From Polytrichum commune (taxonomy: Eukaryota; Streptophyta; Polytrichopsida; Polytrichales; Polytrichaceae), in the NCBI GenBank assembly GCA_950295325.1, contig OX485806.1, positions 3,904,001 through 3,968,000 of the forward strand: a stretch of 64,000 bases of DNA, written 5' to 3'. Positions 36,815 through 63,087 of the stretch are shown piece by piece (the first letter of the stretch is position 1; every line of letters begins with the position of its first letter). A program made the position numbers and the translations under genes. The notes under the pieces were generated by a model, which ran no database searches, was not told where the DNA came from, and saw only the letters and a program-made list of their open reading frames with translations.

Positions 36815-37195
36815 AACTACACTAAATATGATATTTAGTGTCCTATGGTATTTTTACGTCACTCTGGTAACTTTTTGGGTGACACTTCTTACGAACAAGT
36901 GAACAAATATTGTCATAGATGATGGATGAGTTCATCCATTGGCCAAACCCCTACCTTCTCTTGTCACCAACTTGTGATGGAATATTTTCATGAATGATTG
37001 AAATTTGGATGGAAAATCACTTGGTAAGTGATTGCAATTGTAACACTGTAAATCTATAATTATCCAAAATTTTACAAGGAATGACAAATAATGTTGGGTT
37101 TAACATTTAGTGTTGGTGATACTACACCACGGTTTACAATTAGTATTGAGCAAGACAATAAGAATCGGTGACCCTAAATATCATATTTAATATAC
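36815..37195. repeat. MITE-like element, family B, copy 1
   Basis: The left end cactaaatatgatatttagt is inversely repeated at the right end (ccctaaatatcatatttaat, imperfect). The interior, with gaacaaatattgtcat, tctcttgtcaccaacttgtg and aacatttagtgttggtga, is shared with copies at 45,320 and 46,712. Confidence 0.75.
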
Positions 37196-38973: not shown

Positions 38974-41900
38974 TCACGCTCCATATCTTTTCAACACTTT
39001 GCTTAGCTCTGGCATTACATTATAAGCCATAAACGACCTTCGTAACTCAATAATTGATCCCACCTGTTAAACACATCCAATCGTCACATGTTATGGCAGC
39101 AAGGATATATCACACATCCTCAGGAACTCCAATTCCAAGACTTACTGATGATGTCATGACCATTGCAGTCATGACCATTATAATAAATTCAATAGAGATA
39201 CCTCCAACAAGACAAAGAAACAAGAGACATAAAAAATGAATGCACAAAAACCAGGGGAAACACAGGGGCTGCAAAACAAAATCAAGAACAGAAAAACAAA
39301 AGCAAACCTTCACATGGACTAGTAAGGTTCAATGTGTACATACAATAATTAGCATGGATGTGAAACCAATGCTGCCGCCTTGGTGTATAGCTCGAAATCT
39401 ATTATCCACAATTGTTGAAACAGTTGCAAGCATTGCCAATAGTACTCCACCTGCACAAGTATTTGAGCAGGACTACAAATGGTGAGAAGACTTTGATGCG
39501 ACCAATTTCTTCTTTCACTTTCAAAGCATGCTCCTCAAGTTTAGAGACCTCCTAATGCATACCCAATAAGGATACTACAAAAGAGTTGTCGAAGAACATT
39601 TAACCCCAAAGGACCAAGATTCATGGTAAAAATGATCTATTCAATTCATCAGAATGTGAAACATATGGGGATAATATTCATTTCACCAAATTCAGTAATA
39701 AGCTTTTACATGTGTCCAAACAATAAATTAGATTGAGGTAAAACGAGTCTCTATTACCTTATTGTGATTATCTACTTCCAGTTTCATTTCTTCAATGAAG
39801 CAGTGGTCTAAAGAAAATGGGAGAACAATATTCAAAGCTTATAAGAACATATTTTGCAAGTGATATAACTATGAAAGCTATTCATCTGAGCACATGGAAT
39901 CTCTTGATTAAAGACAAATTTCATGTATATGAGAAAGCAGAGAATAAGGAAAAGCAACTTCACCCCAAAATCGTGTAGACTGCTGAACTTTTGTTAAATA
40001 CTCAATTGTTTGACGTCCTGGCTTGAACTTTGGGACACGAGCACCAATTTTCATCATATACTCTGTTACCTCCTTTGGTGTATCCACCTACATGACATGC
40101 AACTAACCGTATTAGTTCTACCTCTTACAAGAGCTATCAATCAAAAACATCACCTTTACTCACAAGAGGTACCAAAAATCAAATTTGTAATGCACATACC
40201 AAACTACCATATAATAGACAACATTGTCATAATAGAAGGCCATCCTTTTAAACTGACATGCTGTGGTGAACCCTTCATAACTACCATCTCCCAGAAGTGA
40301 GATATCCAAAACACTCATTCAAAACATTCTTGTATCAACAATATTAAGGATTCAGGAATAGCCACATACTATATCCAAAACGTTGAAGATGAATATGAAT
40401 AAAGCATTGGCTCCATAATAAAGCCAAGGTTTTGCTCCAGGGGCAGCAGGCCATGCAGGGTTAAGAGAATCTCTTAACTGGTGCCAGAACCCTCCTGAGC
40501 ATGTAAAACTGTAATCACAATTCCTCACATCATCAGCCTTTGTAGAAATAGAGTAAGAACGAGTTGCATACATGCAAGAACAACTTGAAATATCGATGCT
40601 CACTTGGAATATTGACAACTTACAATACAAATAGCCAAAATGGGGTTTGAGAGATGTACTTGGCAACCAGAGATGGCACTGCCATAAGATATGTTGTTGT
40701 GAGCACAGGTTGCATTCCAGTTGGATTTATGTTGAATGGAATATAAGGCTCCACTTCAGGCAGTGATACACCCATTTTGCTGCATCAGCAGACAACATTA
40801 CTTCAGTCAATGACTAATTATTCTCTACTGCAGGTAAAGCACCCACAAAGACATTTCCCGTCAAGCTATAAACCTAAAACCACTTCGCACTGGTAAAACA
40901 AGAAACGAATGCAATTTGGAAAAATATAGAAGACAAAAAAAATAACGAAGTGTTCATCTATCATTTCTATATGTGGATCTGTGGCATGCTAGAAGGAGAT
41001 AAAAGGGCTTTGCAGACAACAATGCCCAACGACCACAACCATCCAACATTATTATGCAAAGATAAGTAGCAAGAAAGCAAACAATGTTATACCCTTTAGT
41101 AGGAGCTAACTCAAAGTTGTAGTACACCATTGATATTTTGCGACGGCCCTCGGTAACAAGAACTGCCCACATAGTGATGACGAGAAACACCCCCAAGAAC
41201 ACAAGTATTGATGGACCCCAACCAGTTGAACCCCCTGCATTTGTAGCAAATTCATAATCAATAATCCAGCTTTTACCAAAGGCTGTCAATATAAACAGAA
41301 CAATAAAGTACTAAATTAGCTCAACATCCAAATGATACCACTAGAAAACTGTGCTCTTTTATGCTTTCATAAGAGGCCCTCCTGAACTTCAGAGCAATTA
41401 AAATGCTGTGTCAATAGGATATTCAGAAAAACAATAATTTACACACTCATGAGAATTCAATTTGACTTCATCCATGAACAAACACCAGCGAATGCATAAG
41501 CTGTCATTCATGAAATCACAACAAGACCAGAGTGGTAGGTACACCAAAATACCACATACGTTGGAGATTACTTATCATTTTGAAAAGGGACTCCGAATAG
41601 CCCTTCAGAATGCCGATGCAAATAATGAGTGAGGATCCCTGACCTGCAACACAGATGAAATGTTCACATCTTTTTCTAGAGTCGGGAAAAGATGGTCCAA
41701 CTCAAGCAGATTTCCATATAAGCTGCAAATATAAAAGAGCATTACATAGACTCCACTCCAGAACCAAGACCCATATGTGCTGATTATTATAGTCTTGTGA
41801 CCACATCACCCAACACCTTTCAGCAAGGTGTAAATTCTTTTTGAATTCCACCCAAAACTGCCTCAAAACCAGTACTACTTTACAAAAAGTCCCGCCTCAA

Positions 41901-44656
41901 GACAATATGTGACAATCACTCACCAAAACCAGCTTCTGTAATTTTCTCACATATCCAATTCAATATCACTGCTCCTAAAGTGAGTAGTCCTGTTGTTATA
42001 GCCAAATAACTAAACCTGGCCAGAGTCAAAACAGAAAGATAATTAATCTTCACAAGCAAAGTCGAATAGGTAATACAAAGTGCAGCAGATGAATTGAAGG
42101 TTCTTGACAAAGAAATGGATGTTGATGAACAGCTATATCTACATACAACATCCCCAACCATCTGCACCATGTCAGAACTTGAGATGAATCTAGATTTGTT
42201 GATAAGTATCCAAGGTTCCGAATTCAACAACAACAGGGCGTCAGTTGCCATTGTAACCATTTCCCAGTCTGTAAAAACATATTACAACCTGTACCTGCTT
42301 TGTGCAGCATACACAGAGTATGGTGTGGAATGTATAGCTATGCCCAAAGCCTCCACCACTGCTACTCCTAATGCTAACCACCAGCTGCACCATTAAGCAA
42401 GTTCCTCATCAATCAATCAAAATGGATACCAAATATTCTAGCATTTAAACACCACTTCTGGTCACCAATCAATACATTTGGCCTTATATTGGGAGCCTCC
42501 AAACCCTGCTTGAAAGACAAGGAATCCATGTTGCAATTAAGTGTGAATACAGTGAACAATCAACAGCAAGAAACAGGCAACAAAAGAGCAAGAAACAACT
42601 GGGAGGGGTGAGACACGAACGTGTATTGTTTTATTTTCTCATTACCGTCAATCCCTTCCTTTCGAAGCTTCACAAGTGATGGAACTAGGTGACAGGATAC
42701 CTGAACAGAGAAACTGAAAGTGAGCTTCAATATCTACATGTATTGGATCCTAACCACCATGGTCAGTGTATGCAAATTATGAGTGCAAGTCATGCTTAAT
42801 ACCTGAAGCATCTAGCAGGATAGGATTTAAGACCATAAATAAATGAAAGTGAAGAAATTAGATACCTGCATGACAATAGATGAAAGGATGTAGGGGCTAA
42901 TACCCAATTGAAATACAGAAAGCTTCAACTCTGAAACGGCATCTCCAAGTTCCTCTGATGTATCACCAAGATTAAATGATCATACATTAGAATCTCAAAA
43001 TATTACACGTCCTACTGCACTTCATGTCTGACAAGGAACTCTGGGGTGAAGGATAGTTAGTTAATTTCATTGACTCTAGAGTGGTGAGAAACAAAGCAGT
43101 CATGTTCACTACAAGCAGGATTTCTTCTGTCATTAAGCACTTTGGTGTCAAAAATTATCCTTCTTTGTATTGCCTTCATTTATATGCTAAATATACTTCT
43201 GGGAAACAAATATATACAGCCTTTAAAATAAATAGATAGCATCTGAATAATTTGCCATAGTTTTTTAAAGTATTTGAGATGTTGATGCTGTGCTCACCTA
43301 CTGCCCCAGAGACAAAGCCAAGGTAATCTCCAGGCATAGAACGGCGATCAAAACCAGGAAGTGGGATGAAGTAGCCTGCACGACTGGCCATGAGAAGAAT
43401 TATTGTCACACATATCCTTCTTCGGATTTCACTTTTAAAAAGGGATTCTGCAGCCTCAGCAATGTTGCTCCGCAGTTTGATTATTCCAAGAAAACGATTC
43501 CTAAATCTTTTGGGCAGTCCATGATCTGGCTTTACAAATTCATCTTCAGTGAGTTGGGCAGATGATGTTGATGGCAGCTCCTCCTCAGACTGTTCAGAAA
43601 CAGAACCATTTGATCCAATCTCTTGTCCATTTTCAATTTGCTGGCGACCCTGTTGGAAAACTAGGACGAGGTAAGAATTTTGTGAAATTTGCCAAGATGC
43701 ACTATAACATCACGATGAATTATCAGACACCAATAAGGGAGGAATTAGTTTGATTTCAGACCTCATCGTTTTTGTTCTCAAAATCCATAGTGGACTTCTC
43801 AAAGGGGAGAGCTCGAGACTTGAACTTTTCAGGCAACGGCTTAAAGTAAGACGTAAACCCCAGGGAGGCATTTCCTCCACAATCCCCCAAGAATTTTCCT
43901 CTCCCCCTCTGAAAGCGCACCGAGCCAAAGATTCTGCTCCGCCTTTGCTTTACAGTTGCTCCATGCTTGAGGAACAAAACTTGGCTAACACATTCCCTCT
44001 GCGCCAATGAAAGAAGAAAATGTTTAATATCCTCAATGTGATAGCGCTCTAATTCAAAAACCGTTCTAAGCTAGAGGGTGCTAAAACCAACACCCTAAAA
44101 TCTTGCAGTATAACTACATATTTAAAAACGTCCACCACCTTAAACATCAGGTTCCTGTGTTGATTTTGGGTCAACTACCAATGAAACTTTGAACCCTCGC
44201 GACTTTTGCACACGGAATTCAAGTAAGGCATGATTTGCTGCATTGAAATCCCCTCTCGACTGCTTAAGCTCACGATAAATATCTAAAACTTTATAAATCT
44301 AACAATTCACCTACGCACTCAGCCCTTAGAGTGACGGTTTTAGCACCCTCTACCTTATATATGAGTTTCAGCAATGGAAAAAGTGTACTTCAAACTACCG
44401 CAATCAAAACATTACATCCCTTTCAAAGCGCTCCAAAAAAGGGCCACTAAACCCTAAAACAACTCTCTCCACGGCTTGAGGTTAAAACCGACCCAAAGTG
44501 AACAAGAACTCCAACAGCTTCTTAACGCGTCTTAAAAGGATGTAAGAAGCGAGAAAGTAAAGATGTAAGCAAGGGCGAGAGCGAGCAAAAAGGAACCTCA
44601 AATGACTTGATAGGAATGTGAGGCTGGGTGGCAGAGATGGTCCCAAAATTTGCCAT
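38974..44656 (-). CDS. SCY2: Plastid SecY2 preprotein translocase subunit with a RAE1-derived first exon
   Basis: Fourteen exons on the minus strand: 44,597-44,656; 43,762-43,998; 43,298-43,649; 42,866-42,954; 42,621-42,700; 42,295-42,384; 41,924-42,015; 41,560-41,643; 41,093-41,282; 40,660-40,779; 40,370-40,508; 39,964-40,087; 39,344-39,450; 38,974-39,063. Phases agree throughout and give 617 residues. Family blocks include GYFIPLPGFDRRSMPGDYL, VEPYIPFNINPTGMQPVLTT, QSTRFWGGVLL and the C-terminus VMPELSKVLKRYGA. SCY2 forms a second Sec channel, thought to act at the plastid inner envelope. Exon 2 is Arg-rich and transit-peptide-like (KQRRSRIFGSVRFQRGRGK) but offers no suitable ATG. It begins at a strong acceptor, and the start comes from an exon that is a copy of RAE1 exon 1. 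The donor at 40,659 was chosen over a stronger downstream gtaagt because it gives the family length. Confidence 0.9.
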
Positions 44657-44907
44657 CGCTTGCTATACTCGTTCCTTTTAGCTCAGAGCAGTGAATGAGT
44701 GCAGGGAATCGAAAGGAACAATGATGCAAAATTGAATGTCGCCCTTCAGTGGCGACGACGAAAAAGCGCGCACTGGAGCTCCTGCTGCTCTGTGTCTGTT
44801 CGGTTTGTGTCTCCGACAATTGGAGAGAGCTTCAAAACCCAATTCCGCCCTTTGTGCATGGGTTGGCAAAGACCATCCTGTGGCCGTCCCTTGCGAGACC
44901 CTCACCG
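44413..44907 (-). repeat. Inverted duplicate of the RAE1 promoter, exon 1 and start of intron 1
   Basis: The reverse complement of this segment aligns from end to end with about 57,757-58,245. It includes the upstream stretch with tctctccaattgtcgga and gtcgtcgccactga, the 60-nt first exon (56 of 60 bases identical) and the intron start, up to ttgttttagggtttagt. Coding bases are better kept than flanks. In this place the segment supplies the start of SCY2 and presumably its promoter. Confidence 0.9.
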
Positions 44908-45319
44908 CGCAATGCTGGCAGAAATGCTCCTCATAATAATCGCCATTGCTTGCTCCACTCCTTCACGAGAGGAGCAAGATGCGAAGAGCTCCAATTGTGA
45001 CCTCCTGACGACCAGAATGCTGCGCACGGGAGTCGATGATGATCTTAGAGTCTGAATTCGAGTAATTCCGTCGTGGGCTATCGGTGTGTGAATCTCTTGT
45101 CTCCGAGACATTCCATGGACAACAGTGGCAGTCTTTCGAGGGCCTTGCTCAAAAGCAAAACCTCGAGATGGGCAAAACCTGGGTTTTGCATCAACTTTTA
45201 GGTTTTGGGAGGAGCTAGTTTTTTGCCACTGGTTATTCTGGATAGGATGTCATCTGAGGAGTCCATCCTATTATTAACTTAACAGTATTCAATTTAGCAC
45301 ATTCAATATGGCAGTGTGG

Positions 45320-45694
45320 TACACTAAACATGATATTTGGTGTCATATACTATTTAATGTCACAATGGAACTTTTCGGATGACAATTCTTATGAAGAAGT
45401 GAACAAATATTGTCATGGATGATGGATGAATACATCCATTGGCCAAAACCCTACCTTCTCTTGTCACCAACTTGTGATGAAATATTGTCATGGGTGATTG
45501 AAGTTTGGATGAAAATTCATTTTGTAAGTGACAGTATTTGCAACACTATAAATCTACAATCCCTGAAAGATTTTAGAAGGAGTGACAAATAGTGTTGGGT
45601 TAACATTTAGTGTTGGTGACGCTATACCGTGGTTTATAATTAGTATTGAGCAAGACAATTAGAATCGGTGACACTGAATATCATATTTAGTGTA
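45320..45694. repeat. MITE-like element, family B, copy 2
   Basis: The ends tacactaaacatgatatttg and aatatcatatttagtgta form an imperfect inverted pair. The interior matches 36,815-37,195. A 5'-TA-3'-type duplication is possible but not certain. Confidence 0.75.
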
Positions 45695-45914
45695 GTATTC
45701 TTGGGCATGATTCAAATTTCCTAATTTGGAAAATGTCAACTGCAAAAATTTAGAAAAATATCAAAATGTTTTGACCCAAGGACATAACATTATTCAACAG
45801 TGTGCATTCATTCATATGGACCCCATGAATATAACCATGGGATGTTGCAGCCAGTGCAAAATTATGGAAATCTTCAATTATTTTTTAAGAAAGTTATCCA
45901 AATACTTCTCATAG

Positions 45915-46445
45915 CAGTAGGGCCACTTCACACAAGAGACTAAAAGCCCATGACCATTGCATTCTAAGATTTCTCGTTGGTCAAAAAGGCCGAGACTATC
46001 CAAGTTCACACCTATGATTGGGGACAACCAGCAATTAGTTACAGATGAACCGGTTGAGTTCGAGAAATAATTGGTTGAAGTTCAAGACTACCGATCATTT
46101 TAGAGGAATTTATAGAATATACCCCAATTTAATAAAGGAAAACCAAAGGATGTCAACATGTAACCAGTCGGACTTGCAAACACTAGGATCTCAACCAATT
46201 ATGCCCAAAAATCTCCACGATCATTGGTTCACACCCACACTAGAAGGTGAAGGCCTAAGGGTCCAAAGAAATTATCATGGATGAAAAGTCTACATGGATT
46301 CCTACATGGCAGACTATGGATAATGTTTCATGATATGCCAAAATTTGTGGTATGACCTTTGGATGAGAATCAAAGGCCCTCACAATTGCATGGTTGGGGC
46401 CCTCCTTGGCTTGTGTGTGAAGTGGTCCTTAGTCTACCTTGTAGT
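45915..46445. repeat. Composite of two dispersed repeats
   Basis: The outer blocks (45,921-46,010 and about 46,278-46,440) match 8,320-8,650, and the middle block (46,035-46,250) matches 5,455-5,660 and 5,905-6,115. This looks like one repeat inserted in another. Confidence 0.5.
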
Positions 46446-46711
46446 TGTACTCCCTTTTCTAAATTGGGTGTCAAAGTTTTCAAGTATGGGTGAAGAAGGC
46501 AACTAGGGGAATATGCAACCGAGGCCTTTGCTTTTAATTGGTAAGGAGAGTTAAGCTTAGGGCATGTTTACACGAAAGAAACTAGGTCATGACTCTTGAG
46601 AATCTTTGAATTCTCATTGGTTGAGAGTGTCACAAACCCCTAATTTACGTTTACATGAGGGCAATTTTGGACTACATCTCAGTGCGTTGTAATGCTTGCC
46701 AAAACACACTA

Positions 46712-47045
46712 CTCTAACACATGATGTTTAGTGTCATATGGTATTTAATGTCACTATGGTAACTTTTTGGATGACACTTCTTATGAATAATTGAACAAAT
46801 ATTGTCATGGGTGATGGATGAGATTCATCCATTGCCGATACACTGCCTTCTCTTGTCACCAACTTGTGATGAATATATTTTCATGGATAATTCATTTTTG
46901 GATGAAAAAAATCACTTAGTGAGTGACAGTAACTGCAACACTAAAAATCTATAATTCCCCCCCCCCAAAAAAAATACAAGGATTGACAAATAGTGTTGGA
47001 TTAACATTTAGTGTTGGTGACACTCTACCACGGTTTTACAATCCT
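46712..47045. repeat. MITE-like element, family B, truncated copy 3
   Basis: Matches copies 1 and 2 from the left end to about the block gttggtgacactctaccacg, then diverges, so the right terminus is missing. Confidence 0.65.
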
Positions 47046-48545: not shown

Positions 48546-48670
48546 CTTCATATCTAGGTAAAATTGTCCTAATATCAATATAATTTAGAATAATGTTGAC
48601 ATTAATAACAACTCGGGTATACAAAAGATTTTCATGCCTTGAAGTACACATCAAATATCAACATGTGACA
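48546..48670. repeat. Left half of a dispersed repeat split by the retrotransposon
   Basis: Matches the left part of 3733-3940. The right part resumes at 57,157 after the retrotransposon. Confidence 0.6.
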
Positions 48671-48776
48671 TGTCGTGTAAATAACGATCGTGTGTCACTG
48701 CAGCTCGAGTACCAACCACCGCTAACAAACAACACTAAAACATAGCAAAGTCACACATAAACAACACACCTCGACA
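48671..48776 (-). repeat. Extra partial LTR (first 106 bases of the LTR) at the outer end
   Basis: Identical to 49,112-49,217 except for five transitions. In coding orientation it is the beginning of an LTR placed after the complete 3' LTR, joined by aa/tt at the junction (48,777-48,778). Confidence 0.85.
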
Positions 48777-48778
48777 AA

Positions 48779-49217
48779 GAAGGAAGATAGTAGAACACTC
48801 ACAATAGCTCTAAATCTCTTCAAATACACACAAATTAGTCAAGCTATCTCTCACTCCACCAAGGGAGAATCCAAGAGTGTAAGTAGGGGAAGAAGAACTC
48901 AAGATTTATTGCAAAATCATGCAATCTACACCTCACACAAGCTCTCTCCACACACTAACTCACAAGACTTGACTTGGCAAGAATGCCAAGCCAAGGAGGA
49001 GGCTCCTCACTTAGGAGCCTTCCTCTCCACATCTAGATTCATTCATCTAAATCTAGATGGATGAAACCCAACGGATAAGGTGCGGCCGTCGACGCCGCAT
49101 ACCGTGACAGCTGTCGTGTAAATAACGATTGTGTGTCACTGCAGCTCGAGTACCAACCATCACTAACAAATAACACTAAAACATAGCAAAGTCACACATA
49201 AACAACACACCTCAACA
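48779..49217 (-). repeat. 3' LTR (complete)
   Basis: In coding orientation it starts TGTTGAGGTGTG right after a polypurine tract and runs 439 bases. It contains palindromic gacagctgtc (49,106-49,115 region), a hairpin around gaggctcctcacttaggagc and an AATAAA polyadenylation signal (minus strand, within tgcaataaatcttg). The last 331 bases match the 5' LTR with four differences. Confidence 0.85.
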
Positions 49218-49230
49218 TGCCCCCCCTCAG
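49218..49230 (-). other. Polypurine tract
   Basis: The minus strand reads tgagggggggca immediately before the LTR start, the expected position of the plus-strand primer. This places the LTR boundary at 49,217. Confidence 0.75.
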
Positions 49231-49501
49231 CTGACTATGGAGTCCCGCCAAGCAGCTAGGACCAATGCCAATCTAAAGGGCATGGATAATGAAAGATTGC
49301 TCCGCAACTAACTAGTGTGGTAAATGTTATTCCAAGGAACTGTAGGCTGGGTGCAATGTGAGTCCCATCCTTAATCGCCTCTGATGTTTGGCCATCAGAT
49401 CCCAAAGAATTAAATCCACCACCTCATGTTGATTGCGTCTCTAAGCCATAACTCCTCATTTTCCATTTGGACAGGCACAAGATGATGAAAACCACACAGG
49501 A

Positions 49502-51238
49502 TCATTGAGTACGATTGGTGGAAGCACCAAGTACCGACGATCTTCGACAGCGAGGACAACTCCATTGTCTAGATGGTAGAGAAGTCAATGGTGGCCTCAA
49601 GCATACCATGTGCCAACCGCGTTGACATTGATCATACAAGAGCATAGTAGCCGCTCCTTTCTTCTTTCCACACACAAAACATAGAAGACCCTCTGGCACA
49701 ACGGCCAGTTCAGGATGAACTGTACCCTCAATAGATAGATGACATGGGGCACAGTTTTTGGAATGCTCGCGACATTGCCTGCCATCCTTGCCTTCCAACA
49801 ACAACAAACCACTCGGCAACATCTCCTTCACCCGAAGGATAGTGCGCCCCGCCCTGACATCCAATGTCGTAGGCGCCTCATGTTGGAGATAGACATAATC
49901 CCCTTGCCGAAATCTCCGCAACTGAGGTCGGTAAGCACCACTACAAATGCGTGCATAACGCAATGTGTCACGGTGCTGAGCAATGGACAAATTCTCCATG
50001 GCCATAGGTATGGCCCTCTGGAAGAATTGAGCCCGCTCCTGCAAACACTCTGCCCAAAGGTCTGGGTCATCCAAGTTCACAACATGAGCTAGTTTTTCCC
50101 GAATAGAACTCGGGAGTATAGGCTCACGTCCATACAATAATTGATACGGGCTGTAGGATGCCAGAGAGGCCTGCCTACTAAATCGATAACCCATAGCAAT
50201 CCATGGCAACATAAGGTCCCAATCCCGGTGGCTTCCCCGAAGTAATCCATACTTCCTCAAGTCACACTTGGTTGTCTGAACAACCCATTCAGCCAAGCCA
50301 TCTGCCTCCGGATGATCCCGAGAGGTGGTGCGGTGATCTATGAGAGCCTGAGTGCACAACTCCTCAAAAGCACCAAGGAACTCCCTCCCTTGGTCCGTCA
50401 ACACCTCAGCTGGTGCTCCAAAACGTGCTAACACACGATCCAAAAAGGCGGCCGCGGCCAACTCTGCAAAGTTCTGGGGTAGAGCAACAAGCTCAATCCA
50501 CTTGCTAAAATGCTCCACCATCACCAAAACGTACTTTGCTCCACGTGGTGTAACCATCAACGGCCCTGCAAAGTCCAGCGACCAACGGTAGCCTAATCCC
50601 ATGATAGGTAAGGGCTGTAACTGAGGTGATAAGGTGTTAAAGCTAGACCTGACCCGGTCACAAACTTCACACCTCCCGACATATGCAGCCACCTGCTGAT
50701 ACATGCCAGTCCACCAATATTGGCCACGCAACATCGAATGTGTCCTGCGTATGCCAAAATGGCCAAGTTCCTTGTGCACTTGTCGCACCAAGGAGGCCCT
50801 CTGATCCGGCCTAGGAACAATACGCCTTGTCCCATCCGGCCACAATCGAAATAACAAACCGTTCTCCCAACGGAACCTTGTTATCCGATGTCCAATCCTA
50901 TCCCTTTTCATTGCCGAAATAGACAAAGGACAGGTACCCTGTTGAAGCTTATGCAATACAGGAAGGTCCTCCCATATATCCGCAATAGCTTGAGGCCGAT
51001 CAGTCTCATCATCCGAGCCTTGTATCGGAATCTCAACAGATGAACCAGAAAATAAAGTGAGGTAGGCAGCCGCGTGCCAACCTGGAACCGCCTCTCGATC
51101 ACAATCTCTATGCCACCTGGTCCCGGTCAAGTCCTCATCCGAAGGACTTGGATTGCGTGAGAGTCCATCTACATCCATGTTGGTAATCCCAGCACGGTGT
51201 ACTACCTCAAAGTCATACTTTTGGAGCAACAAAGCCTA
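49502..51238 (-). pseudogene. End of RNase H, integrase and C-terminal PHD finger of the retrotransposon
   Basis: A long open stretch of 576 codons (51,232 down to 49,502), cut off from the upstream part by a TAG at 51,236-51,238. It begins with the RNase H end (NMDVDGLSRNP). Then come the HHCC zinc domain (HKELGHFG ... CEVC) and the integrase core with its catalytic Asp (SLDFAGPL), Asp (LTDQGREF) and Glu (GLAEWVVQ). After the integrase C-terminal region comes a PHD-like module, CFVCGKKKGA ... GWHMVCLRPPLTSLPS ... WSCPRC. Its spacing fits C4HC3, but the third ligand position reads Tyr in LLYDQC, where family members have Cys. PHD fingers read histone H3 tails, and chromoviruses use a chromodomain in this position. 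No chromodomain is seen here. Confidence 0.9.
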
Positions 51239-52636
51239 CATGGCAAGCTTATCCGACTCCATGAGCCACCGTAACGGCTAATGATCAGTTACCAAAGTAA
51301 AGTGTTGACCATAAAGATATGGCCGGAAATGGGCAATAGCCCACACCGCCGCCAATGCTTCTCCCTCATAGGACGAATAATTGGCCTCCGCTGTGTTGTT
51401 GCTTCGCGACGCGTAAGCAACAACATACTCCCGGCCAACGTCATCTTTCTGGGTAAGAACTGCTCCCAAACCCAATGAGCTCCAGTCTGTATGCAACTGG
51501 AAAGATTTGGAGACATCTGGACGTCGAAGCACTGGAGCCGTACCCAGTTTCTGCTTCAATGTCTCAAATGCCTGATGCTGCTCACGACCCCAAGTCCAAG
51601 GTTGGTCTTTGCTCGTGAGAATGGTGAGCGGCTTGGCAATCAAGCTAAAGTTCTTGACGAATCGCCGATAGTAATTCGCCAAGCCCAAGAAAGCACGAAG
51701 TCTCGACACATCTACCGGTGCTAGAATCTTCTGCAATGCATTCACCTTAGCTTGTTGTACCCCAAGACCTCCTGAAACAATCATATGCCCCAAATATGCC
51801 AACCGGTCATGAAAAAACTTGCACTTGTCGTGGTGCAAGCGTAATCCCCACCACTGTAACCGTTCAAAAACGGCTTGCAGATGCCTCACATGCTCCTGTG
51901 GTGTTGTGCTGAAGATGATCACATCGTCTATGTAACACCGAGCAAAAGGCAAGCCAGAGAGAACCTGATCCATCACCCGCTGAAACTCAGCGGGTGCATT
52001 CTTCAGGCCAAATGGAAGAAACTTCCAATGATAAAGTTGATCTTTCCCATCTTGATCAACTCCCCAAAATGCGGTCTTCACCCGATCTCCCGTAAGTAAT
52101 GGAAGTTGGTGATATCCGGATCTCAAGTCCAAGGTGCTAAAGACTCAAGAAAATCCGATGGCATCGAACAACTCCTCCGGGATCGGCATGGGATACCGAT
52201 CCGACTTGGTCTTCCGATTAATTGGACGGTAATCCCCACACATCCGTTTCTCCGTCCAATTGCCAAAGATATCCTTCTTCGATGGCATAACCATAGCACA
52301 AACATACTCCCCGTTGGAAAGTTCGATTAGCCCTGCTGCCAAGAGCTCTCCGCAACGAGCCTAAACGCCAATCCGCTCGGAAACACTGAGCCTGTAAGGT
52401 CTCCGAAAAATGGGATGGTCGTCCTCCAACTGAATGTAGATGGGTTTTCCTTTATAACCTTCAAGATCCTGAAGGCTAAAAGCAAAACATCTACGGTACG
52501 AGCGAATAAATGCTCGTACCTTCCGTGCCTCAGCACCAGTGAGACGAGGGCCTAATTCAAGTGGCCAATCATCAAACTCTGTAGTCTCCCTCTCCACCAA
52601 AGGAGAACCACCTGATGCTAGTACAAACTCTAATCG
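51239..52636 (-). pseudogene. Reverse transcriptase and RNase H of the retrotransposon
   Basis: Four open pieces in one frame are separated by stops at 52,361-52,363 (TAG), 52,145-52,147 (TGA) and 51,278-51,280 (TAG). The piece is bounded by TAGs at 52,637-52,639 and 51,236-51,238. The reverse transcriptase shows RMCGDYRPINRKT, LDLRSGYHQ, FLPFGLKNAPAEFQR and the active site CYIDDVIIFS. RNase H shows LHTDWSSLG, SYEGEALAAVWA and the VTDH Asp. The enzyme would copy element RNA into DNA; with these stops it cannot be made from this copy. Confidence 0.93.
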
Positions 52637-52639
52637 CTA

Positions 52640-55600
52640 ATGAGAGGAGGGTGCATTAACCATGCCCCCAGTCTCGGTGCTAGTACTAGAGTCTGACATT
52701 TCTTCATCACCACCAATATGTGATGATGAAGCCACCACCGGAGGCGAAAAAACCGAAGCAGTGTAAAAATGTTGAGCTCGAAGCTCCTCCATCACATGCT
52801 GCTTGAATTGAAAAATTCGTTTGGCTTTTCCAACCATGGCGTGAATTCCCTCCTCCATGGGTGTGGACCGTTGTGCCCCTTGACCAAAGTCCTCTGCCCC
52901 TAGAGACAACCATTGGTCACCACGATGCCTTTGCAATGAAACGCATAAAGCAACAGTCCACACCATAGTATGAAGATCCATAGCTTGGCCCAACACGAAG
53001 CATCGTTGGCCCTTAGAAAGGCCGGGAGTTGTGGTGGTGCCAGTGCGGAATCCCATGGCACGTTCCCGTTCGTCAGCCAATGGTTCGGTGTGGGTTTTGG
53101 TGTGAACATCCCACACCATACCCGGCCCCTATCGCGGAAAGCGAATGACTGTGGAAACGTCATAAATGTGGGAAAGGCCCGCCGTGGTGCCCCCATTTTG
53201 TTGACCAATGCCAACTGGGGTAAATCATCTCGAACAACCGGCAAAGAAGTCCGGTTTGGATCCAAGATGTCATCCACCTTTTGATCAAAAGGTGGAAGCA
53301 CTGTAGAAAATGTTGCAGCTAAAGTAGATGACGGTGCGAGGTTGGTCCAAATCCACCGAGGCCGGTGGGCATAAGAACCAATGCTCGCGGCATCCACAAA
53401 AATGGGATCTCCAAGGTGTTGACGAACATAATAATCGCCTTCCAACACCTTGTCCCGAGAGTCTCCCAACAAAGGTACATTCTCGAAAATATACCCTGGA
53501 GGGAAAGGTTGGTGGGAATACCACCACTGCATGAGGCGGATGAGGTCCCAAAATAGAGTAGACCTGGGATCCTCTAGTCCTCCGCCTGCTCCAGCACGTG
53601 AATGGCCCTGGCATGGCCATCTCGCAATGACCATATCCACCGGACCTAAGTGTCGTAAGTCGGCCTCACTGATGAGTGTGACATCACGAGGGAGACGTGA
53701 AAAACACCCACGAATGGCAGTCGGGTGTAACTGTTGTGGGTACAATACCATCAACTGGTGAAGATGATGACGAGCTGCACGGGTGGACACTGGAGAGTTG
53801 TCCACATAGACATATCGGTTGACCGTAAGGCCAACCTCCAATACGGCTGCCAAACCTGTGGCAATGCCCCCAAACAGCTCCACCAAAGTAATTCCATTGT
53901 CTGGAGGACGCCACAAAATGGGACGTGCCAACGTTGATAGACTATCCGATATGACAGGTGTGATAGAACTGAGAGAGAGGACAATGTCATCACACCTTTG
54001 GAACAAGCCAATGAAATCACGCCACGGAGGTAGAGGGTCATTGGGATGTCGCACCAAGGAATGCCTAGGTGCCATCGCCTGTGGGTCTTCAACACTCCCC
54101 AGGAATGCTAATGACTCCTCCAATAATGTGGATCCATGAGGCAATGTATCCACCATAGCACTGCATCCAGAAAGCATGGATAATGGTGCGATAGTGGCGG
54201 CTGCTGCGAATGCCACAGGAATGAGTTCCCTACGACCGTCTCCAGCCGACCAACCTGGGCGGATCCATGCCTCCTCAGTCCAGTTGTCCAACCCAAACCC
54301 AAGAGGATAAAGTGCTTGCTGACCAACTAAAATGTCATAGTTGGTCGCATCCGTTACCGCACACCTAAGAAGAAGAGGTGCGGGTGAATCTCCAGGCTTC
54401 AAGCGGAAGCTAAGCTGTAATGGCTCCCGAGTATAACCAGTGGCCCGCTCCACGTGGCCAATAGATGTGACGATGGTAAATGGACAAGGAGCCAAGTCGT
54501 CGGCCGTCAATCGCAATTCATGCGCAAGCTTTTTGCCGATCATAACAGGTTGTGCTCCTGAATCCATCATCACACACTGGGGAGCAACTCGAATAGGGTT
54601 GCCCCCAGTCCGGCCGACCATCAAAATGTCGGAATCATTCACCATCCGTATAACGCCAGGTCGAATGCCTCGACGCTCGCGAGCAGGTCGAGCAGTGACA
54701 TCATACAGATAAGTTGCTCCAGCGGATACTAGTGAGTCATAAGACGTGGTCAGTGCCCTATCATCTGAGGCGTGTGCGTCAAAATACGCAATGGTCTGTG
54801 CCGCAAGTCTCGCTCGCCGTTTGGCCACCTCCTCAGGATCTTCAGAAGCAGGGATGTCTGTAGTGGCTTGAGCCACGGTCAGAGAAGGTAAGGATGCCTT
54901 CCCTTCCAAAATCCTACCTGCTAAGTGAAAAACCTTAGCAAGTTGGAACTCTGGCGACGACCACTCCATTGCCGTGAACAAAGGTGTGTGCAACACCTTG
55001 GATGCCAACGTGTGTGCCATGTCGGTCGCTGAACGTGAAACCTCATCGTTCGGATGATGACCACTGACAGATTGGACGGCATCGGCCAATCCAAAGGATA
55101 ATGGTAGGCGTGCCTGACCAATTTGGTCCGCGGGCGCATTGTCCCGAGCTTGCAAGCTTGCCACATTTTCATTTGTGGTCGAAGGTATGGCTTGTGACAC
55201 GGCTCGAGCACGTGTCACGGCTGCGGAACTCACCACCTCGCCCGAGGCTCCGAACATATAGTAATCCGGCGTGGAAGAACTAGCCTGAGCTCCGGAGGAA
55301 GACGGTGAGGCCAAGATTTGGCTGGATGACGCTAAACTTTTGAACCTTTCCTCCATGGCTCCAATCTTCGCCTCCAACGTCTTCTCCCGGTCGGAAGAAG
55401 GGCGTTTCTCAAGATGGAGAGCAAAGCAGTTCTCCACCGTATGATTGTTCCGCCCACAATGGGAACACTTCAACTGGTTGGGTAAATGTTTACACGTGCC
55501 CTTCGTTGAATCCTTAGCGGGAACAAATGATTTCCGCTTCAGATTACCTACAGTCTGGGCTGGCTTTTGCTTGGAAGGACAATCCTTCTTAGCGTGGCTG

Positions 55601-56754
55601 GCCTGCCCACAAGACCAACAATACATGGTCTTGTCCATCTCGGCCTCCGCCAATCCCGCAGTTGCCACCGGAACTCTTCGGGATTTGCTAGAATCTACTA
55701 GCAGGGACACCAAATCAGTGGCGTTGTGCTGACACAATGCACGATCACACTGCTCCACAATGGCGAATGCCTCTGCGAGTGTCGCCCGACTACCATAATC
55801 CATGATGATCCTGGGTAGCGCCAAGTCAATGAGACGTTTGTCAATCTTGGACAAAAACACCTTCACCAATTGACTTTCCGCAAACACACCTCCAGATTCT
55901 CTGGCAAACCTCGCCAACCTCGTATACATGGTACGAGGTGTATCATCCTTCTCCCGTCTAAAATCTTGTATTCGCTGCATCTGGTCCCGACGGAAACCTC
56001 CGTACTCCTCATGTAGATGCAGCTCAAATGCCCGCAATGGCTCAAAAACCGGCGGAGCCCCCAAAGAGGCTAAAGCCGCCTGGGTAGCCTGGGCATAACG
56101 GGAGAGTGGAAGAATGGGGCTCGACGTACTCGCCACAGCGGGAGCAGAACCCTTATCCTTGGGTTCACCAGGAGAAGCTCCCTCCACGTTCACCACAAAT
56201 ACTCCCTCCGGCACCTCCGATTTAACCTCAGGGACGGCCATGAAGGTGGAAGCTGCGCCTTCCTTCAATGCGGATACCAACTCAACCCGAGTCTCCCAGT
56301 ACCGCTCCACCTGACGCAGCTCCATCCAATGAGCCTCCGTCCACTGTTCATAAGTTTGGAGAGCTTCATGCTCCAAATGCTGAGGCAGAAGCTCGAACGC
56401 ATACCAATCGTTGAAATTGGTATTGCGTTGGCATTTCTCTCGCATCCACGTACGAAACCGGATTTTTCAGTATTGCAGAAAAATGGTCCCTGCTCGACCG
56501 GAAAACCAGTCCCGTATCCCTCCCCTAGTCTCCTTCTCCATATCGTCAAAGGTTCTCACCCACAAGACGTGAGACCGAGTGATAGTCCCCCACGCCGAAG
56601 TAGGCTGAAAAGCCTCGTTGGGTGCTACCACTGGTTCAACGTCCAAGAGGTCCAAGGGATGACCTTCCGATGCTCTTTTTTCCTCCTTGTTTCTCCGCGA
56701 ATCCGCAATGTTTGTCTTCCTCCACTCTAAAATCTCGCAACTACTTGTTTTCAC
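52640..56754 (-). pseudogene. Gag, protease and DNA methyltransferase part of the retrotransposon polyprotein
   Basis: The frame opens at an ATG (56,752-56,754), about 70 bases after the primer-binding site. It has a TGA at 56,467-56,469 and is then open for 1,181 codons to 52,900. A Gag-like helical region (GGFRRDQMQRIQDFRREKDD) is followed by two CCHC knuckles, CWSCGQASHAKKDC (about 55,580-55,625) and CSHCGRNNHTVENC (about 55,425-55,470). A retropepsin-like site, MMDSGAQ, lies at about 54,555-54,570. The methyltransferase follows (about 53,900-52,915, listed separately). At 53,121-53,130, in a C-run on the plus strand, the frame shifts by one. The methyltransferase end and all of pol continue in the other frame down to the TAG at 52,637. 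Confidence 0.9.
52915..53905 (-). pseudogene. C5-cytosine DNA methyltransferase domain inside the retrotransposon
   Basis: Motifs appear in canonical, unpermuted order. Motif I is ITLVELFGGIATGLAAVLEV (about 53,840-53,900), motif IV is ARWPCQGHSRAG with the catalytic Pro-Cys pair (about 53,590-53,620), motif VI is FENVPLL (about 53,470-53,490) and motif VIII is AHRPRWIWTN (about 53,345-53,370). A target-recognition-like segment follows (RAFPTFMTFPQSFAF). After the frameshift come motif IX/X-like pieces (ERAMGF and CFVLGQAM). The FGGIATGL block and the HRPRW block resemble DNMT3-type enzymes more than CMT or DNMT1, but I cannot run a phylogeny. An intact relative would methylate cytosine in DNA. 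All key residues up to motif VIII are intact in this copy, but the frameshift separates the C-terminal AdoMet-side motif. Confidence 0.9.
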
Positions 56755-56809
56755 ACTCTTTCTCGAGTGTCGGAGTTCAAGATTTAAAGAAAAGAGCTGG
56801 AATCATGCA

Positions 56810-56823
56810 CATTCTTGCCAAGT
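56810..56823 (-). other. Presumed primer-binding site, complementary to the element's own LTR
   Basis: Directly after the 5' LTR the coding strand reads acttggcaagaatg. It contains the TGG expected of a tRNA-type site, but all 14 bases are also the exact complement of LTR sequence at 57,019-57,032 as transcribed. Confidence 0.6.
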
Positions 56824-57230: not shown

Positions 57231-57756
57231 ACATTCATATATATAAATATATATAAGTTTGACATTGCAATCAACTTATGGAGCCCACACTTTGAAATCC
57301 ATTGAATGGTCCTATTAGTGTGGGTGGAAAATTAGAGTGGAAGTAATTAGAGTCGGCCTCACTAAACTTCTAGTCAAAGTGGAATTATTGTAGATCCAAG
57401 TCCCTGGATCTTCCTCTGAGTCTTCATCAAGAATCCTGACCAACACCTTACATAAAATAAAATAATCACCTTAGATAAAAAAAAAGTCAACACAAAAGCA
57501 AATTATCACCAACATTAATTTTCTAATCATTGTGGCCCATGCTAATTGTCTACTAGAAATTTAGCATGGGTGGAAAGTAGATGTGGCCCACACTAAATCT
57601 CATTATGAGAATTAGTGTTGGCTCTAGAATATTGTGGGCCACAGTAATAGGACTATTTAGTCCACTTCCTAGTCCCATAACTCTTTTGGCTTCCCGGACT
57701 TTATATTCAATTTCATTTCATTTCATTTCATTCCCTCCGAGTTGCGTGCACAACAC
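57231..57756. other. RAE1 upstream flank
   Basis: AT-rich DNA without coding signal. A short (TTTCA)n run lies at about 57,710-57,733, shortly before the duplicated promoter block. Confidence 0.5.
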
Positions 57757-58245
57757 GGTTTAAGGTGTCGTAAAGGACGGCCATAGGGTGGTCTTTGCCA
57801 ACCCAAGCACAAAGGGCGGAATTAGGGTTCGAAGCTCTCTCCAATTGTCGGAAGACACAAACCGAATAGACACAGAGCAGCAGTAGCAGCAGGAGCTCCG
57901 GTGCGCGATTTTCGTCGTCGCCACTGAGGGGCGACAATCAAATTGCAGCATCGTCCCTTTCGTTTCCTTATCCCATTCATTGCTCTGAGCTCCGAGGAAC
58001 GAGGATAGCAAGCGATGGCAAATTTTGGGACCATCTCTGCCACCCAGCCTCACAACCCTAACAAGTCATTCGAGGTTCCTTCTTGTTCGCTCTCGCCCTT
58101 ACTTACATCTTTACTTTCTCGCTTCTTACAGCCTTTTAAGGCGTGTTGAGAAGCCTGTGGCGTTATTGTTCAGTTTGGGTCGGTTTTAAGCTCAAACTGT
58201 GGAGATAGTTGTTTTAGGGTTTAGTCTCCCATTTTTTGGCCACGG
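57757..58245 (+). promoter_or_regulatory. RAE1 promoter/5' UTR, exon 1 and intron start: parent of the SCY2 duplicate
   Basis: The segment shared in inverted orientation with 44,413-44,907. The part before 58,015 is upstream/5' UTR sequence common to both genes, so promoter function is inferred from position. No core element is assigned. Confidence 0.7.
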
Positions 58246-61200
58246 TGAGCTGAATTTCCATGAGGACTGGGAGGAATTATTTTATCGAGTGAAGGATTTG
58301 GTGCATGCTGTGAGTGTTGCGATCAAGCAAATGGGATATGCTGGATGCCAATTATGGCTGTAGGTCTGATGTGTAGTATATGTGTATCAAAACAAATCCT
58401 GTTAGAAATGGTTCCTGCTGTTACTCGTTGAAAGAGAAAAGAGATTTCAGCATAGAGGATCGACCCTAGTCGGAGAGAGTATGCACAAGTGATGTGGTTC
58501 AACTGTGTGATGGTTGTGATGTACACTATGATGGGACTTGCGAAATTATTAGACAGAAGCAGTTTGATTTGGGCTGGGAAAATTGAGCATGTCCCATTTG
58601 TCCAAATGTTGGTTGAACCACATATTCAGTAAGCGCGTGAAGAACGCTATTTAGTGAAGACAATTTTTTTGGGTGTAGGGTTTTGCTCAGGATGTCGACC
58701 GTTTCTGTTGACGAGGGAGGTTATGTTGTCCTTGGGTTGCTCAAGTTAGGTCAGGGGAAGGATATTCCTCTTTGAACCTCTGTGATGAAGTCCTTCTATG
58801 GGTGTGTGGAGCAGGTTGTCTCTGCTGTGTGTAGGTGTAGTCAAAATGCATCCTGTTAGACATACTTCCTGTGCAATTAACTGCTATTACTTGTCGAAAG
58901 AGGGAAGAGACTCTGGCGTACCGGATTGGCCCCTGTACCAGAGAACATCCACAATGGCTGTAGTTCGTTGTGTGATGTACATAATGATGGGGACTTGTGA
59001 CACCATTAGACAGAACAGTCTGAACCGGGTTGTGAGAATTGAGTACTCACTAAGCGTTTGAAGAACGCTATTGAGTGGGACAGAATTGCAGGGTTTAGGG
59101 TTTAGATCAGGTGAGGATGTCGAGTGTTTCTGTTGAAAGGAGAGGTTGTGGTGCTCAAATCTGGTCATAGGGATGATATTTCACTGTGATAAACTCCTTG
59201 TGTGGGTGTGTGGAGCAGGTTGTGTCTCCTCCTAATGATGGCATTTCAAGTCTGAGCTTCAGTCCGAAAGCAAACTACCTTGTGGCCACTTCCTGGGATA
59301 ACCAGGTTGTCTTTTACTCCTTCTCAACCTCTCCAATATGGGCTGTAATCCTTGAGTGTTGTTGTAATGTTTCCCTCTCTGTTTCCTTCCCCTATTGCTT
59401 GTTTCTTTTTTTCCCCCAATGAGCAGGTATCTCAGTCCTCCTTACTTTATTGGGTCTTCGCTTGCCTGTTGAAGAGCTAAAAGTAGAGTTAACATCAAGG
59501 GTGGATGAGTATCACCGGCCATTTCTCCATGCTTCATGGTGTTATTACAAGAAGTAGTAATTTGATGCCCTTGTCTGGGCGCACTATAGAGTGAAGGGCA
59601 CAACAAATGAGTTTACTAAAAGTTGCTGGATTTTGAAACCAAACATTTAAAAGATAGCACTGTTATTGCTTGAGTAGGGTAAAGTGTTTGCATTAGAGAA
59701 CTATCACAGCTGGGGTTCTGAACATTTGGCTCTTTGGTGTTCAGGTGCGATGCTGGGAGATCCAATCTAATGGCGGCAGTGTTCCTAAGGCTGCCATTTC
59801 TCATGACCAGCCAGTGAGTTTTTAACTCTTAAACTCTTGGATTGTTTTCATGATAATGGTTGGTAATCCATATATACAAACCAGTATTCTACTATTCCTC
59901 ATTACATGTAGTTGGGCAGCAACTATCTTGCTGTCTTAATTGTTTGTTCTGAAAGTTATAACGATTTGTCTTTAATTGTTTGAAAGCAATTAGAGGTAGA
60001 TTCCAGTGATCATCATGTGTGTTAGATTTGACTTCCAAGGACAGGCCGATACTAGTCTTGGAGTAGAGACAGCCTTTATGTTGTAGAGTTGAAAGGCTCT
60101 GGTTACTACTGTATATGCTTCTTGTGATGGTCTATACTATATTTTTCAATGTTGGGAGCAGTTCAGTTAACAATAAAATTATTGAGTTGTCTATGATCAT
60201 CTGAATTTTTTTTAAACTTTATTTGAGTACCTTGACAAGGTCGTAAAGTTTTCTACTCCAATAACTACCTCTTCTTGCATCAAACCCCATCCCAACTTTC
60301 TGTGATAGAACAATGACTGAATATCTATGTTTATTGCAGGTACTCTGTTCAGCCTGGAAGGATGATGGCAGTACAGTTTATTCAGGGGGCTGTGACAAGC
60401 AAGCAAAGATGTGGCCTATTCTATCTGGTGGCCAGGCAGTAACAGTTGGGATGCATGACGCACCAATTAAGGATATTGCATGGATTGCTGAGATGAACCT
60501 CCTTGTAACGGCCAGTTGGGACAAAACCCTGAAGTAAGCAATTTTGCAATTTCACTATGAAGTTCTTTGTGAAGTTTTCCATGTGGAGTTTCTTGAAGTG
60601 TCTTTGAGTGCATCATTTGTGCTTTGTTTTAGTCAACAGACTTGCATTTGTCCCTCTGGAGTTCCTTTGCCGTTCTACTTTTCCCCCTTCATGACTTCTT
60701 TTGAAGAGGCATTCTGATGACATCAAAGATCCTGTCAAGAGGATTAGAATTTGTTGTACTTTTCATTTTCCTATGTCAAGAGTGGGTAGGTATTCTTCAT
60801 AAGTCTTTAGTAGGGAGCTTCACCTTGTATTGACTTCTGGAGGACTTGGATAGGTACTGGGATTTGCGTCAACAGACTCCAGCACATACTCAGCAACTAC
60901 CGGAGCGATGTTATGCTATGAGTGTCCGCCATCCTCTCATGGTTGTTGCAACTGCTGATCGGAACATTGTGGTCTACAATCTTGCAAATCCTCAAGTATG
61001 CATCTACTGATGTAAAGATGTGTAATGTCATTGATTAACTTAGATGAGTAGGCTTACTTGGTGTAGTGAGCAGTTGTAATGACTAAATAAGTAATCATAA
61101 ATTTCTATAATTTTATATCTTCAAATGTCAGTTGGCTTTCACTACTTCTAGATGGCTTTGATACCTGTGGATTGGGAGGTTGAAACATGTCCTCAAACAA

Positions 61201-63087
61201 GTTCCTTCATACCTGATATGTATATTGTTCTCCAATGCAGACTGAGTTTAAACGGTTACCTTCACCATTGAAATATCAAACTCGATGTGTTGCAACATTT
61301 CCTGACAAGCAGGGCTTTTTGGTAAATATTTTTAACTCTGCTGGTGATTGTTTATAATTGTCTGCTTTATTTTAGCCTGCTCAAAGGTGAAACTTGTGAA
61401 CCTGGTACATCAGTAGTGTGGTTATCCTGAGATTATTGTACACATCTATGGTTCTTTCTGCTCAGATTTAAACATTGCTGTCCTTTTCTCCCAAATATGA
61501 CATCCGCACTCTTGACCTTCAGCCTATAAATATCCTACTTCGGTGTTGCAGTGCATGCCAAGTTTACTTTATTTTTCTTTCATGTTCAATCATTCTCAAT
61601 GTCAGGGATAGGTTTTTTTCCATATTTCAACACATAAAGGTGGCAGCTTCAACATTACATTACTTTGGAGATTGGCTTAACACATAATTTTGTTGTGCAG
61701 GTGGGTTCTATTGAGGGAAGGGTTGCAGTTCAGCATATTGATGAGGCGCAGCAAGCTAAGAATTTCACCTTCAAGTGCCACAGAGATAACAATGACATTT
61801 ATGCAGTCAATGCTATCAACTTTCATCCTGTACGTTATTGTTTGTGCAAATATACATGGTTCACAGAAGCTTATTTTATTTTTTCCTGGCATGCTGCTGC
61901 CTTGAGGGTGTGGGAATGTGAAGAAGTTGACATTTTCTATATTGCGATATCTCGAGCAGTGGCAAACTTTATTTTACTGCTGCCTTGTGCTACTGAGCTG
62001 CAATTTGTATTGCGGCCTTGACTACTTTATTACACCACATCTCAATCTTTTCTGTATGAAGCTTTCCTAGCTGCTTATGTGATGTCTGAAAATAGCAGGT
62101 CCATGCAACTTTTGCCACCTCTGGATCTGACGGAGCTTACAATTTTTGGGACAAGGACAGCAAACAGAGACTGAAGGTATGTATTTGAAGGCATAGCTCT
62201 GCTTGCTCATGAACTTGATAACATGTAAAGTAATTTGATTCAAAGAATCATTGAATTGATATGTGTGGGATTGATCAGGCCATGCAGAGGAGTAACCAGC
62301 CAATTCCTTGCAGTACATTCAATCATGATGGTACCATCTTTGCCTATGGGGTAAGTATGTTCTTTCCACTCAATTGCATGGCAAACTGTAGAAGATAAAA
62401 AATTCCAGACCCAGTTTTTCACTAAAATCTGTACAAAGATATCCTTATATATCAGGTTATTTTATTCTCAGCTCCAGTTCTCTATGAAACGTGCTACTTT
62501 ATGATAAAGTAGCTGCTAGTGGCTTTTGCATCTCACACAAGGTTGTGCTTTTCAGGTTAGCTATGACTGGAGCAAGGGTGCTGAGAATCATAATCCTTCA
62601 CAAGCCCGCAACTATATCCTTTTGCATCCCACTCAGGTGCAAATTCGGCTCTGATATGACCTTTTCCTTGCCTCCTATCCATTGATTGTTTTGCATACAA
62701 AGTCAATGATTTATTTTCACTCATGGTGCATACTTGGAAGTATTGCTTGAGTTCAAGTGTATATAGCAAGCTATTTGGGTCACTGAGGGCCAAACTCATA
62801 TTAGCACCTCTTGGCATACCAAAACGAGTTTGACCCTCGAACTGATATAATATGTTGTTTGTTCAATCCTCTGCACTACCTGAGTTTGCACCAAAAAATT
62901 ACCAAACATGAAAGGTTGTATGCAAATCAACCAACTCCCAACCGAAAGTCCTGTTGAGCTAAAAGATAACCCTAGTGTTCTGAGCAGACTGAAGAGTACC
63001 AGGATATGACATTTTTTTTTTCTTTACCTTTTGCAGGATGCGGAAGTGAAGGCTAAAGCTCGGACTGCAACTAGTGGGAGGAAATAG
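58015..63087 (+). CDS. RAE1: RAE1/Gle2 mRNA export factor, WD40 protein
   Basis: Eleven exons: 58,015-58,074; 59,219-59,305; 59,745-59,813; 60,340-60,533; 60,854-60,995; 61,241-61,321; 61,701-61,829; 62,099-62,176; 62,279-62,350; 62,556-62,636; 63,037-63,087. They sum to 347 residues, close to the plant RAE1 length, with correct phase at every junction. The start is [15 protein letters not shown]-repeat blocks include [53 protein letters not shown] and [20 protein letters not shown]. The typical C-terminal block [16 protein letters not shown] precedes a basic tail ([12 protein letters not shown]). RAE1 docks at the nuclear pore through Nup98 and acts in mRNA export. The first donor is gttcct, weak but identical in the SCY2 copy. 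Intron 1 contains a tandem duplication that repeats the exon 2 acceptor. Confidence 0.95.
58310..59218 (+). repeat. Tandem duplication of about 404 bp in RAE1 intron 1, including a copy of the exon 2 acceptor
   Basis: Blocks recur about 400 bases apart: cctgttaga with the following ttcctg..., gttgaaagagaaaagag / gtcgaaagagggaagag, gaagaacgctatt, gatgtcga..gtttctgttga and tgtgtggagcaggttgt. The last block ends at 58,814 in the first unit and at 59,218, the real acceptor, in the second. Confidence 0.85.

Follow-up and report, generated by a model that had tools for sequence, protein, structure and literature searches.

A copy of the RAE1 start region lies inverted in front of the plastid gene SCY2 in the moss Polytrichum commune and may provide its first exon

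Introduction

When the start of a gene is found copied in front of a neighbour that encodes a plastid protein, does the neighbour use it? This question is raised by a 64,000-nucleotide stretch of Polytrichum commune DNA (the window; OX485806.1, positions 3,904,001 to 3,968,000, our contig C4), in which the SecY2 gene SCY2 and the gene RAE1 lie head to head with a copied piece of RAE1 between them. Coordinates below are positions in the window unless a contig is named.

Results

SCY2 and RAE1 are neighbours in the window

Both genes were modelled with a home-made spliced-alignment program, using Ceratodon SCY2 and Sphagnum RAE1 as templates. SCY2 lies on the minus strand. From the FRNRFLG region onward its model has 12 exons and 11 introns and is free of stops; the alignment spans 43508 to 38980, within the exons that encode the SecY2 core (38980..43649) downstream of a proposed short intron, intron Y. 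Among the 120 protein matches listed of 349, the best come from Ceratodon (78%), Marchantia (73%) and Sphagnum (69%). They are named hypothetical protein, SecY and SCY2, respectively, and each carries PF00344, which identifies the gene as a member of the SecY family. On the plus strand, the RAE1 model has 11 exons and 10 introns, again free of stops, with exon 1 at 58015..58074 (spliced alignment and relatives' rows) and exons 2 to 11 at 59219..63084 (spliced alignment). Its WD40 product matches Sphagnum and Marchantia proteins at 89% over the full length, the Marchantia protein being named an mRNA export factor, which marks the gene as a land-plant RAE1 orthologue, and we take RAE1 to be a nuclear-pore/mRNA-export protein. 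Neither gene has a close second copy among the own-genome matches listed: the next RAE1 match is partial, at 51% on contig C5, and the next SCY2 match is partial, at 32% on contig C2. A close paralogue of either gene was also considered as the origin of the second RAE1-like segment described below, and none is among the matches listed.

The window contains several other repeats. Within RAE1 intron 1, a sequence of about 450 bp is present twice, head to tail, the two being 64% alike (58376-59230); two short translations from this stretch look PHD-like by eye and gave no match in Pfam. A repeat of 330-370 bp occurs in three copies that are 82-85% alike (36816-37189, 45320-45689 and 46708-47042), and tandem-like repeats with a unit of about 270 bp occupy 19563-20439.

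An inverted copy of the RAE1 start precedes SCY2

The original prediction placed an inverted copy of RAE1's upstream region, exon 1 and intron start before SCY2, and this is borne out. In a BLASTN comparison of 43600-45300 with the window, 44433-44900 aligned inverted to 58239-57764 with 86.43% identity over 479 columns including gaps (E 3e-160). The copy as a whole (44433..44907, minus strand) comprises the RAE1 leader, exon 1 and the first 165 bp of intron 1. Counted over ungapped sites, the leader part, derived from the ATG-free RAE1 leader (57764..58014, plus strand), is identical at 214/240 positions (89.2%), and the intron part at 145/164 (88.4%). The exon part shares 56 of 60 bases with RAE1 exon 1 (93.3%), and the four changes are those already reported (AAC to ATT, AAC to ATC and TTC to TTT). 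Immediately upstream of the copied part, in 57743-57763, only 12 of 20 positions are identical, which puts the edge of the copy near 57762, equivalent to 44907. Of the predicted limits, 44413..44907, the lower one was generous by 10-20 bp, the copy ending at 44433 by BLASTN and at 44423 by nhmmer.

As to the direction of copying, the NPNK motif at RAE1 residues 14-17 is unchanged in all 11 sequences of the alignment, the window's own and 10 others. This points to RAE1 as the donor, so that the sequence would have passed from RAE1 to SCY2.

To what else in the genome is the copy related? A search of the 407.8-Mb genome with 44300-45000, in which only the best candidates were scored and very common words were skipped, listed 30 matches: the query itself, RAE1 and 28 short ones. 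All 28 lie within query positions 1-86 and match one end region of a small element (44067..44357) that stops there. This element lies in what would be the first intron, and its inverted ends, of 32 nt, are 88% complementary. Besides RAE1, no further copy of the inverted piece is among the matches listed. Transport by a mobile element was considered and is unsupported, given the single match other than itself (RAE1) and no element found around the copy. Nor was the arrangement of a transposon-carried fragment (Pack-MULE, Helitron or rpl6-like) found, the inverted-repeat element lying beside the copy rather than around it.

A Gypsy-type LTR retrotransposon of about 8.4 kb, with RVT_1, RNase H and integrase, separates the two genes (48778-57157). 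One of its ORFs (49502-51232) carries a PHD finger and another (52900-56445) a C5 DNA methylase segment; at its left end (48665-49217) the repeats are more complex than a simple LTR, and its limits are approximate. Because its ends are 98.8% alike over 333 bp, compared with 89% in the flanks of the copy, the retrotransposon is later than the copy. Subtracting it leaves about 4.5 kb between the copy and RAE1.

A second RAE1-like start lies beside the copy

Beyond the original prediction, a second and apparently older RAE1-like start is present beside the first. It lies directly upstream of the copy on the minus strand (44914..44978, possibly to 45062; MAIIMRSISASIAR), is more diverged, and matches RAE1 around the start codon (44978-44914). 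The short segment scores 47, against 17.8 +/- 3.0 for shuffled sequence (0 of 2000 shuffles reach 47), and the longer stretch has a local score of 52, against 24.4 +/- 3.8 (1 of 1000 reaches 52); the segment's score of 80 compares with a maximum of 55 among 306 other tiles of the window. Used as an nhmmer query, it finds the copy at E 0.0018 and RAE1 at E 0.013, and with RAE1 as the query it is itself found at E 0.11. Its alignment contains 10-15 gaps in about 190 columns. Taken alone, the part upstream of 44992 shows a weak likeness that is not significant (43 of 500 shuffles reach its score, and 46 of 500 for a relative of this region on contig C2). No likeness to RAE1 was detected upstream of 45063, where 328 of 500 shuffles reach the score, nor, downstream of 44433, any trailing part of an older copy, 92 of 500 shuffles scoring as high there. 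The position of the segment beside the copy suggests that RAE1 5' sequence probably came to the front of SCY2 twice.

The region further upstream (44992..45246, minus strand) is GC-rich and has two partial copies on contig C2, in two pieces, 86% and 84% alike. The front of SCY2 thus has more than one piece of sequence in common with other places. On contig C2 itself, 24396000-24404970 and 24440930-24449900 are 99.98% alike over 8971 bp and 45 kb apart, and each carries a piece of this SCY2 upstream region split by about 370 bp. The pair would be either an assembly repeat or a segmental duplication of very recent date; compared with 43700-46000, both stretches gave no match apart from the 44992-45246 piece.

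The copied exon fits SCY2 in phase, as do other candidates

The SCY2 transit-peptide exon (RECVSQ..NKNDE; 43762..43998, minus strand) opens at an acceptor, CAG/AGG, and contains no in-frame ATG before its end, so that some upstream exon is needed. The copied exon of 20 codons (44597..44656, minus strand) has kept its ATG, frame and donor (GAG/GTTCCT, phase 0). Its phase-0 donor matches the phase-0 acceptor of the transit-peptide exon, and the joined ORF is intact. On these points, namely the coordinates of the transit-peptide exon, its phase with the copied exon and its want of an earlier ATG, our analysis and the original prediction agree. With a small donor matrix, built from 20 donors of SCY2 and RAE1 and leaving out RAE1 intron 1, the copied donor scores 3.77, exactly as RAE1's own does, the two being identical over the 9 scored positions. 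For the CAG acceptor before 43998 the score is 4.0, towards the bottom of the range spanned by the 21 training acceptors (3.5-14.6).

Other sequences could also provide a first exon. Between 44020 and 48700, 149 ATG-donor pairs fit one of two acceptors; 16 of them, the copied exon included, score at least 3.77, and four of the 16 fit the good acceptor, with ATGs at 46098, 46884, 45111 and 44656 (the last being the copied exon). The ATG at 45111 begins a rival in-phase exon, MSRRQ (45028..45111, minus strand; MSRRQEIHTPIAHDGITRIQTLRSSSTP), whose donor CCC/GTGCGC scores 4.82. An exon built on the older RAE1-like segment would start at ATG 44946 and use the donor GCG/GTGAGG after 44906, a fair one at 4.75. 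The only acceptors that match its phase are a GAG scoring -4.2 and one at 44065 scoring -2.8.

Among the 8 + 14 proteins inspected, each set taken from 120 matches listed, none has a RAE1 exon joined to a SCY2 N-terminus. Two further comparisons proved uninformative about the choice of first exon. One was N-terminal similarity to other SCY2 proteins, tested by shuffling in 33 combinations (11 proteins by 3 versions), of which 7 gave p <= 0.03: one with the transit-peptide exon alone, three with the older segment and three with the copied exon. The other was a composition score, which came to -0.30 for the candidate N-terminus with the older segment, 0.04 with the copied exon and 0.08 with MSRRQ, against a mean of 0.24 in 118 SCY2 homologues; its means in RAE1 and SCY2 N-termini are similar (0.19 and 0.24).

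The exon changes look neutral and the RAE1 TATA-like box lies outside the copy

The change of two Asn codons to Ile had been read as adaptation to a targeting peptide. Divergence amounts to 4 of 60 sites in the exon and 45 of 404 in the flanks (Fisher p 0.37), and if the RAE1 exon was held while the copy drifted at half the flank divergence, 3.3 exon changes are expected against the 4 observed. Neither constraint nor adaptation is therefore visible. With a neutral number of changes, and a crude composition score that falls from 0.295 to 0.035, the adaptive interpretation finds no support.

The proposal that SCY2 took over the promoter of RAE1 is likewise unsupported, although such a takeover is still conceivable. 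The only TATA-like match in 57300-58015 is at 57701 (box at 57699..57710, plus strand), about 60 bp upstream of the start of the copy at about 57762, and a pyrimidine-rich stretch behind the box is likewise upstream of the copied segment. No TATA-like match was found on the SCY2 side in 44600-45630. In front of SCY2, GC content stays near 50% to about 45.17 kb, some 270 bp beyond the copy, and at RAE1 it falls close to the boundary of the copied part. A TATA-like box outside the copy, together with a GC-rich block that continues upstream, suggests that SCY2 keeps its own promoter, and the GC-rich region at 44992..45246 may contain this promoter or leader.

The copied leader (44657..44907, minus strand) contains two upstream ATGs, at 44876 and 44859, that are missing in RAE1's own leader. 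The latter has no ATG at all, as do 2% of its shuffles. In neutral simulations, at least two upstream ATGs were gained in 12-32% of cases, and the gain is thus weak evidence.

Two relatives keep another frame open at the SCY2 start

Intron Y (43650..43761, minus strand) has the donor GAG/GTCTGA, with a score of 2.48 against 1.9-9.6 for the training donors. The reading frames of two close relatives, P0241 (97%) and P0242 (94%, both over 55% of the query), run in another frame, which is free of stops across the transit-peptide exon and intron Y. At 43712, within intron Y, the window has a TGA where both encode Trp in that frame. Identity to P0241 and P0242 in the other frame is 94.6% and 83.8% in the exon part and 88.9% and 75.0% in intron Y; exon 3 gives 97.5% and 95.8% and the next intron 87.2% and 65.6%, the region limits in this comparison being off by one codon (exon 3 was started at 43652; the correct position is 43649). 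In the exon part, 22 consecutive residues of the other frame are identical in both relatives, which speaks for that frame. With both relatives pooled, 6 of 10 visible exon changes are at third codon positions when read in the frame adopted here, a weak point in favour of this frame, as the changes were read from proteins and silent changes of the other frame cannot show. Eight frames from other species, taken as mosses (P0243, P0245-P0250 and P0253), run unbroken from Met to SGAV and into the apparent next intron. We provisionally keep the two-exon reading, with the transit-peptide exon followed by intron Y.

How might SCY2 begin?

Capture of a 5' exon by SCY2 is our leading reading, though we hold it tentatively. 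In the version we find best, itself still somewhat doubtful, a RAE1 piece of about 480 bp (leader, exon 1 and the start of intron 1) would have been copied, inverted, to a position before SCY2 about 4.5 kb away, presumably through templated repair from the neighbour, and the retrotransposon of about 8.4 kb would then have entered the gap between the genes. SCY2 would be transcribed from its own upstream promoter, at about 45.0-45.25 kb, and not from that of RAE1. Splicing of 44597 to 43998 would let the copied exon give the start codon and the first 20 codons, the 20 copied residues being merely tolerated at the front of the transit peptide. Since the copy is young compared with the gene, SCY2 must, we infer, have had another start earlier, and the older segment beside the copy suggests one earlier copying of RAE1 5' sequence. 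Against use of the copied exon stand the other in-phase first exons, the gained upstream ATGs and the other frame that is open in two relatives, and also the want of excess constraint in the exon and the unbroken N-termini of the eight presumed moss frames.

The first two of these points suit a different account, a possible one, in which the copy sits inert, as a templated insertion, in the 5' leader or first intron of SCY2 and another first exon is used, for example MSRRQ (45111-45028) or the one built on the older segment, with its ATG at 44946. MSRRQ fits the phase of the good acceptor, and the two donors score 4.82 and 4.75; the GC-rich block extends to 45.17 kb, the upstream ATGs were gained within the copy, and the divergence of the exon matches the expectation from drift. 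The older-segment exon suffers, however, from its poor in-phase acceptors (GAG at -4.2, or 44065 at -2.8), all 21 modelled acceptors being CAG or TAG, and the C2 relative of the MSRRQ exon differs from it by single-base gaps, although that relative may be non-functional. The third point would be explained if the SCY2 start had been misread, the native start being a single first exon in the other frame (MPPWGLRLTLS..), broken by the TGA at 43712, with SCY2 either damaged or dependent on a new start. We consider this improbable. The frame is indeed open and ungapped through intron Y in P0241 and P0242, with its run of 22 identical residues, and the eight presumed moss frames are unbroken from Met to SGAV; but intron Y is less conserved than exon 3, its conservation is about equal to, or somewhat above, that of the next intron, the visible changes of exon 2 lean towards third positions in the adopted frame (6/10, a weak sign), and the remainder of SCY2 is intact.

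The original prediction in full, with SCY2 using both the promoter and the first exon of RAE1 and with adaptive Asn to Ile changes, now seems very improbable. The copy does hold about 250 bp upstream of the ATG, but the TATA-like box and the pyrimidine tract are outside it, the number of changes is neutral, and the N-terminal composition score declines instead of rising (0.295 to 0.035). There is also an extended form of exon capture, which we regard as unlikely, in which two or more copies of the RAE1 start came to the front of SCY2 in one orientation, the older copy replacing a single-exon start and the younger taking over exon and donor. Were this true, the opening codons of a plastid translocase would, in one lineage of mosses, have come more than once from a nuclear-pore gene, with templated repair between adjacent genes as the route.

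Discussion

If the copied exon is used, SCY2 would represent a young 5' exon capture in which donor and acceptor are adjacent and the donor is not organelle-targeted. The step from ordinary sequence to the front of a transit peptide would then be open to direct study by comparing close relatives. Otherwise, the locus would serve as a clear caution that an exon can be copied, fit well and be in phase while having no function.

The literature searched, which covered few subscription journals, contained nothing on SCY2 in Physcomitrella or on SCY2 together with RAE1. Recruitment of exons for plastid genes is already known, and SCY2 is a possible further case. The presequences of rice rps11 are reportedly duplicated from existing presequence genes; there, as may be true of SCY2, the duplicated 5' part of another gene begins an organelle protein, but the donors are said to be genes for mitochondrial proteins, unlike RAE1.

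Rice mitochondrial rpl6 gained its 5'-UTR via a PIF/Harbinger-like element (PMC2631504). Like SCY2, it is a gene for an organelle protein that received a new 5' leader through local insertion; the rpl6 event is tied to a transposable element and to several homologous sequences, whereas SCY2 has one copy with no element found around it. In the diatom nuclear PETF, a separate first exon is spliced to a plastid protein and a donor has been proposed, which resembles the capture suggested here. The possible donor, LI818, itself encodes a plastid protein (PMC3022921), in contrast to the presumed nuclear-pore/mRNA-export protein RAE1.

The nuclear chl-fus gene is described as having recruited its transit peptide through exon shuffling (PMC4522979). 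In both cases a gene for a plastid protein is proposed to have recruited a 5' exon, and probably 5' regulatory sequence, via an intron. Unlike the chl-fus case, relatives of SCY2 already have an N-terminal extension, and use of the exon by SCY2 is putative. The chl-fus event is ancient and was inferred from intron position and phase (PMC4522979), whereas the donor to SCY2 would be a known neighbour whose DNA is still 86% alike.
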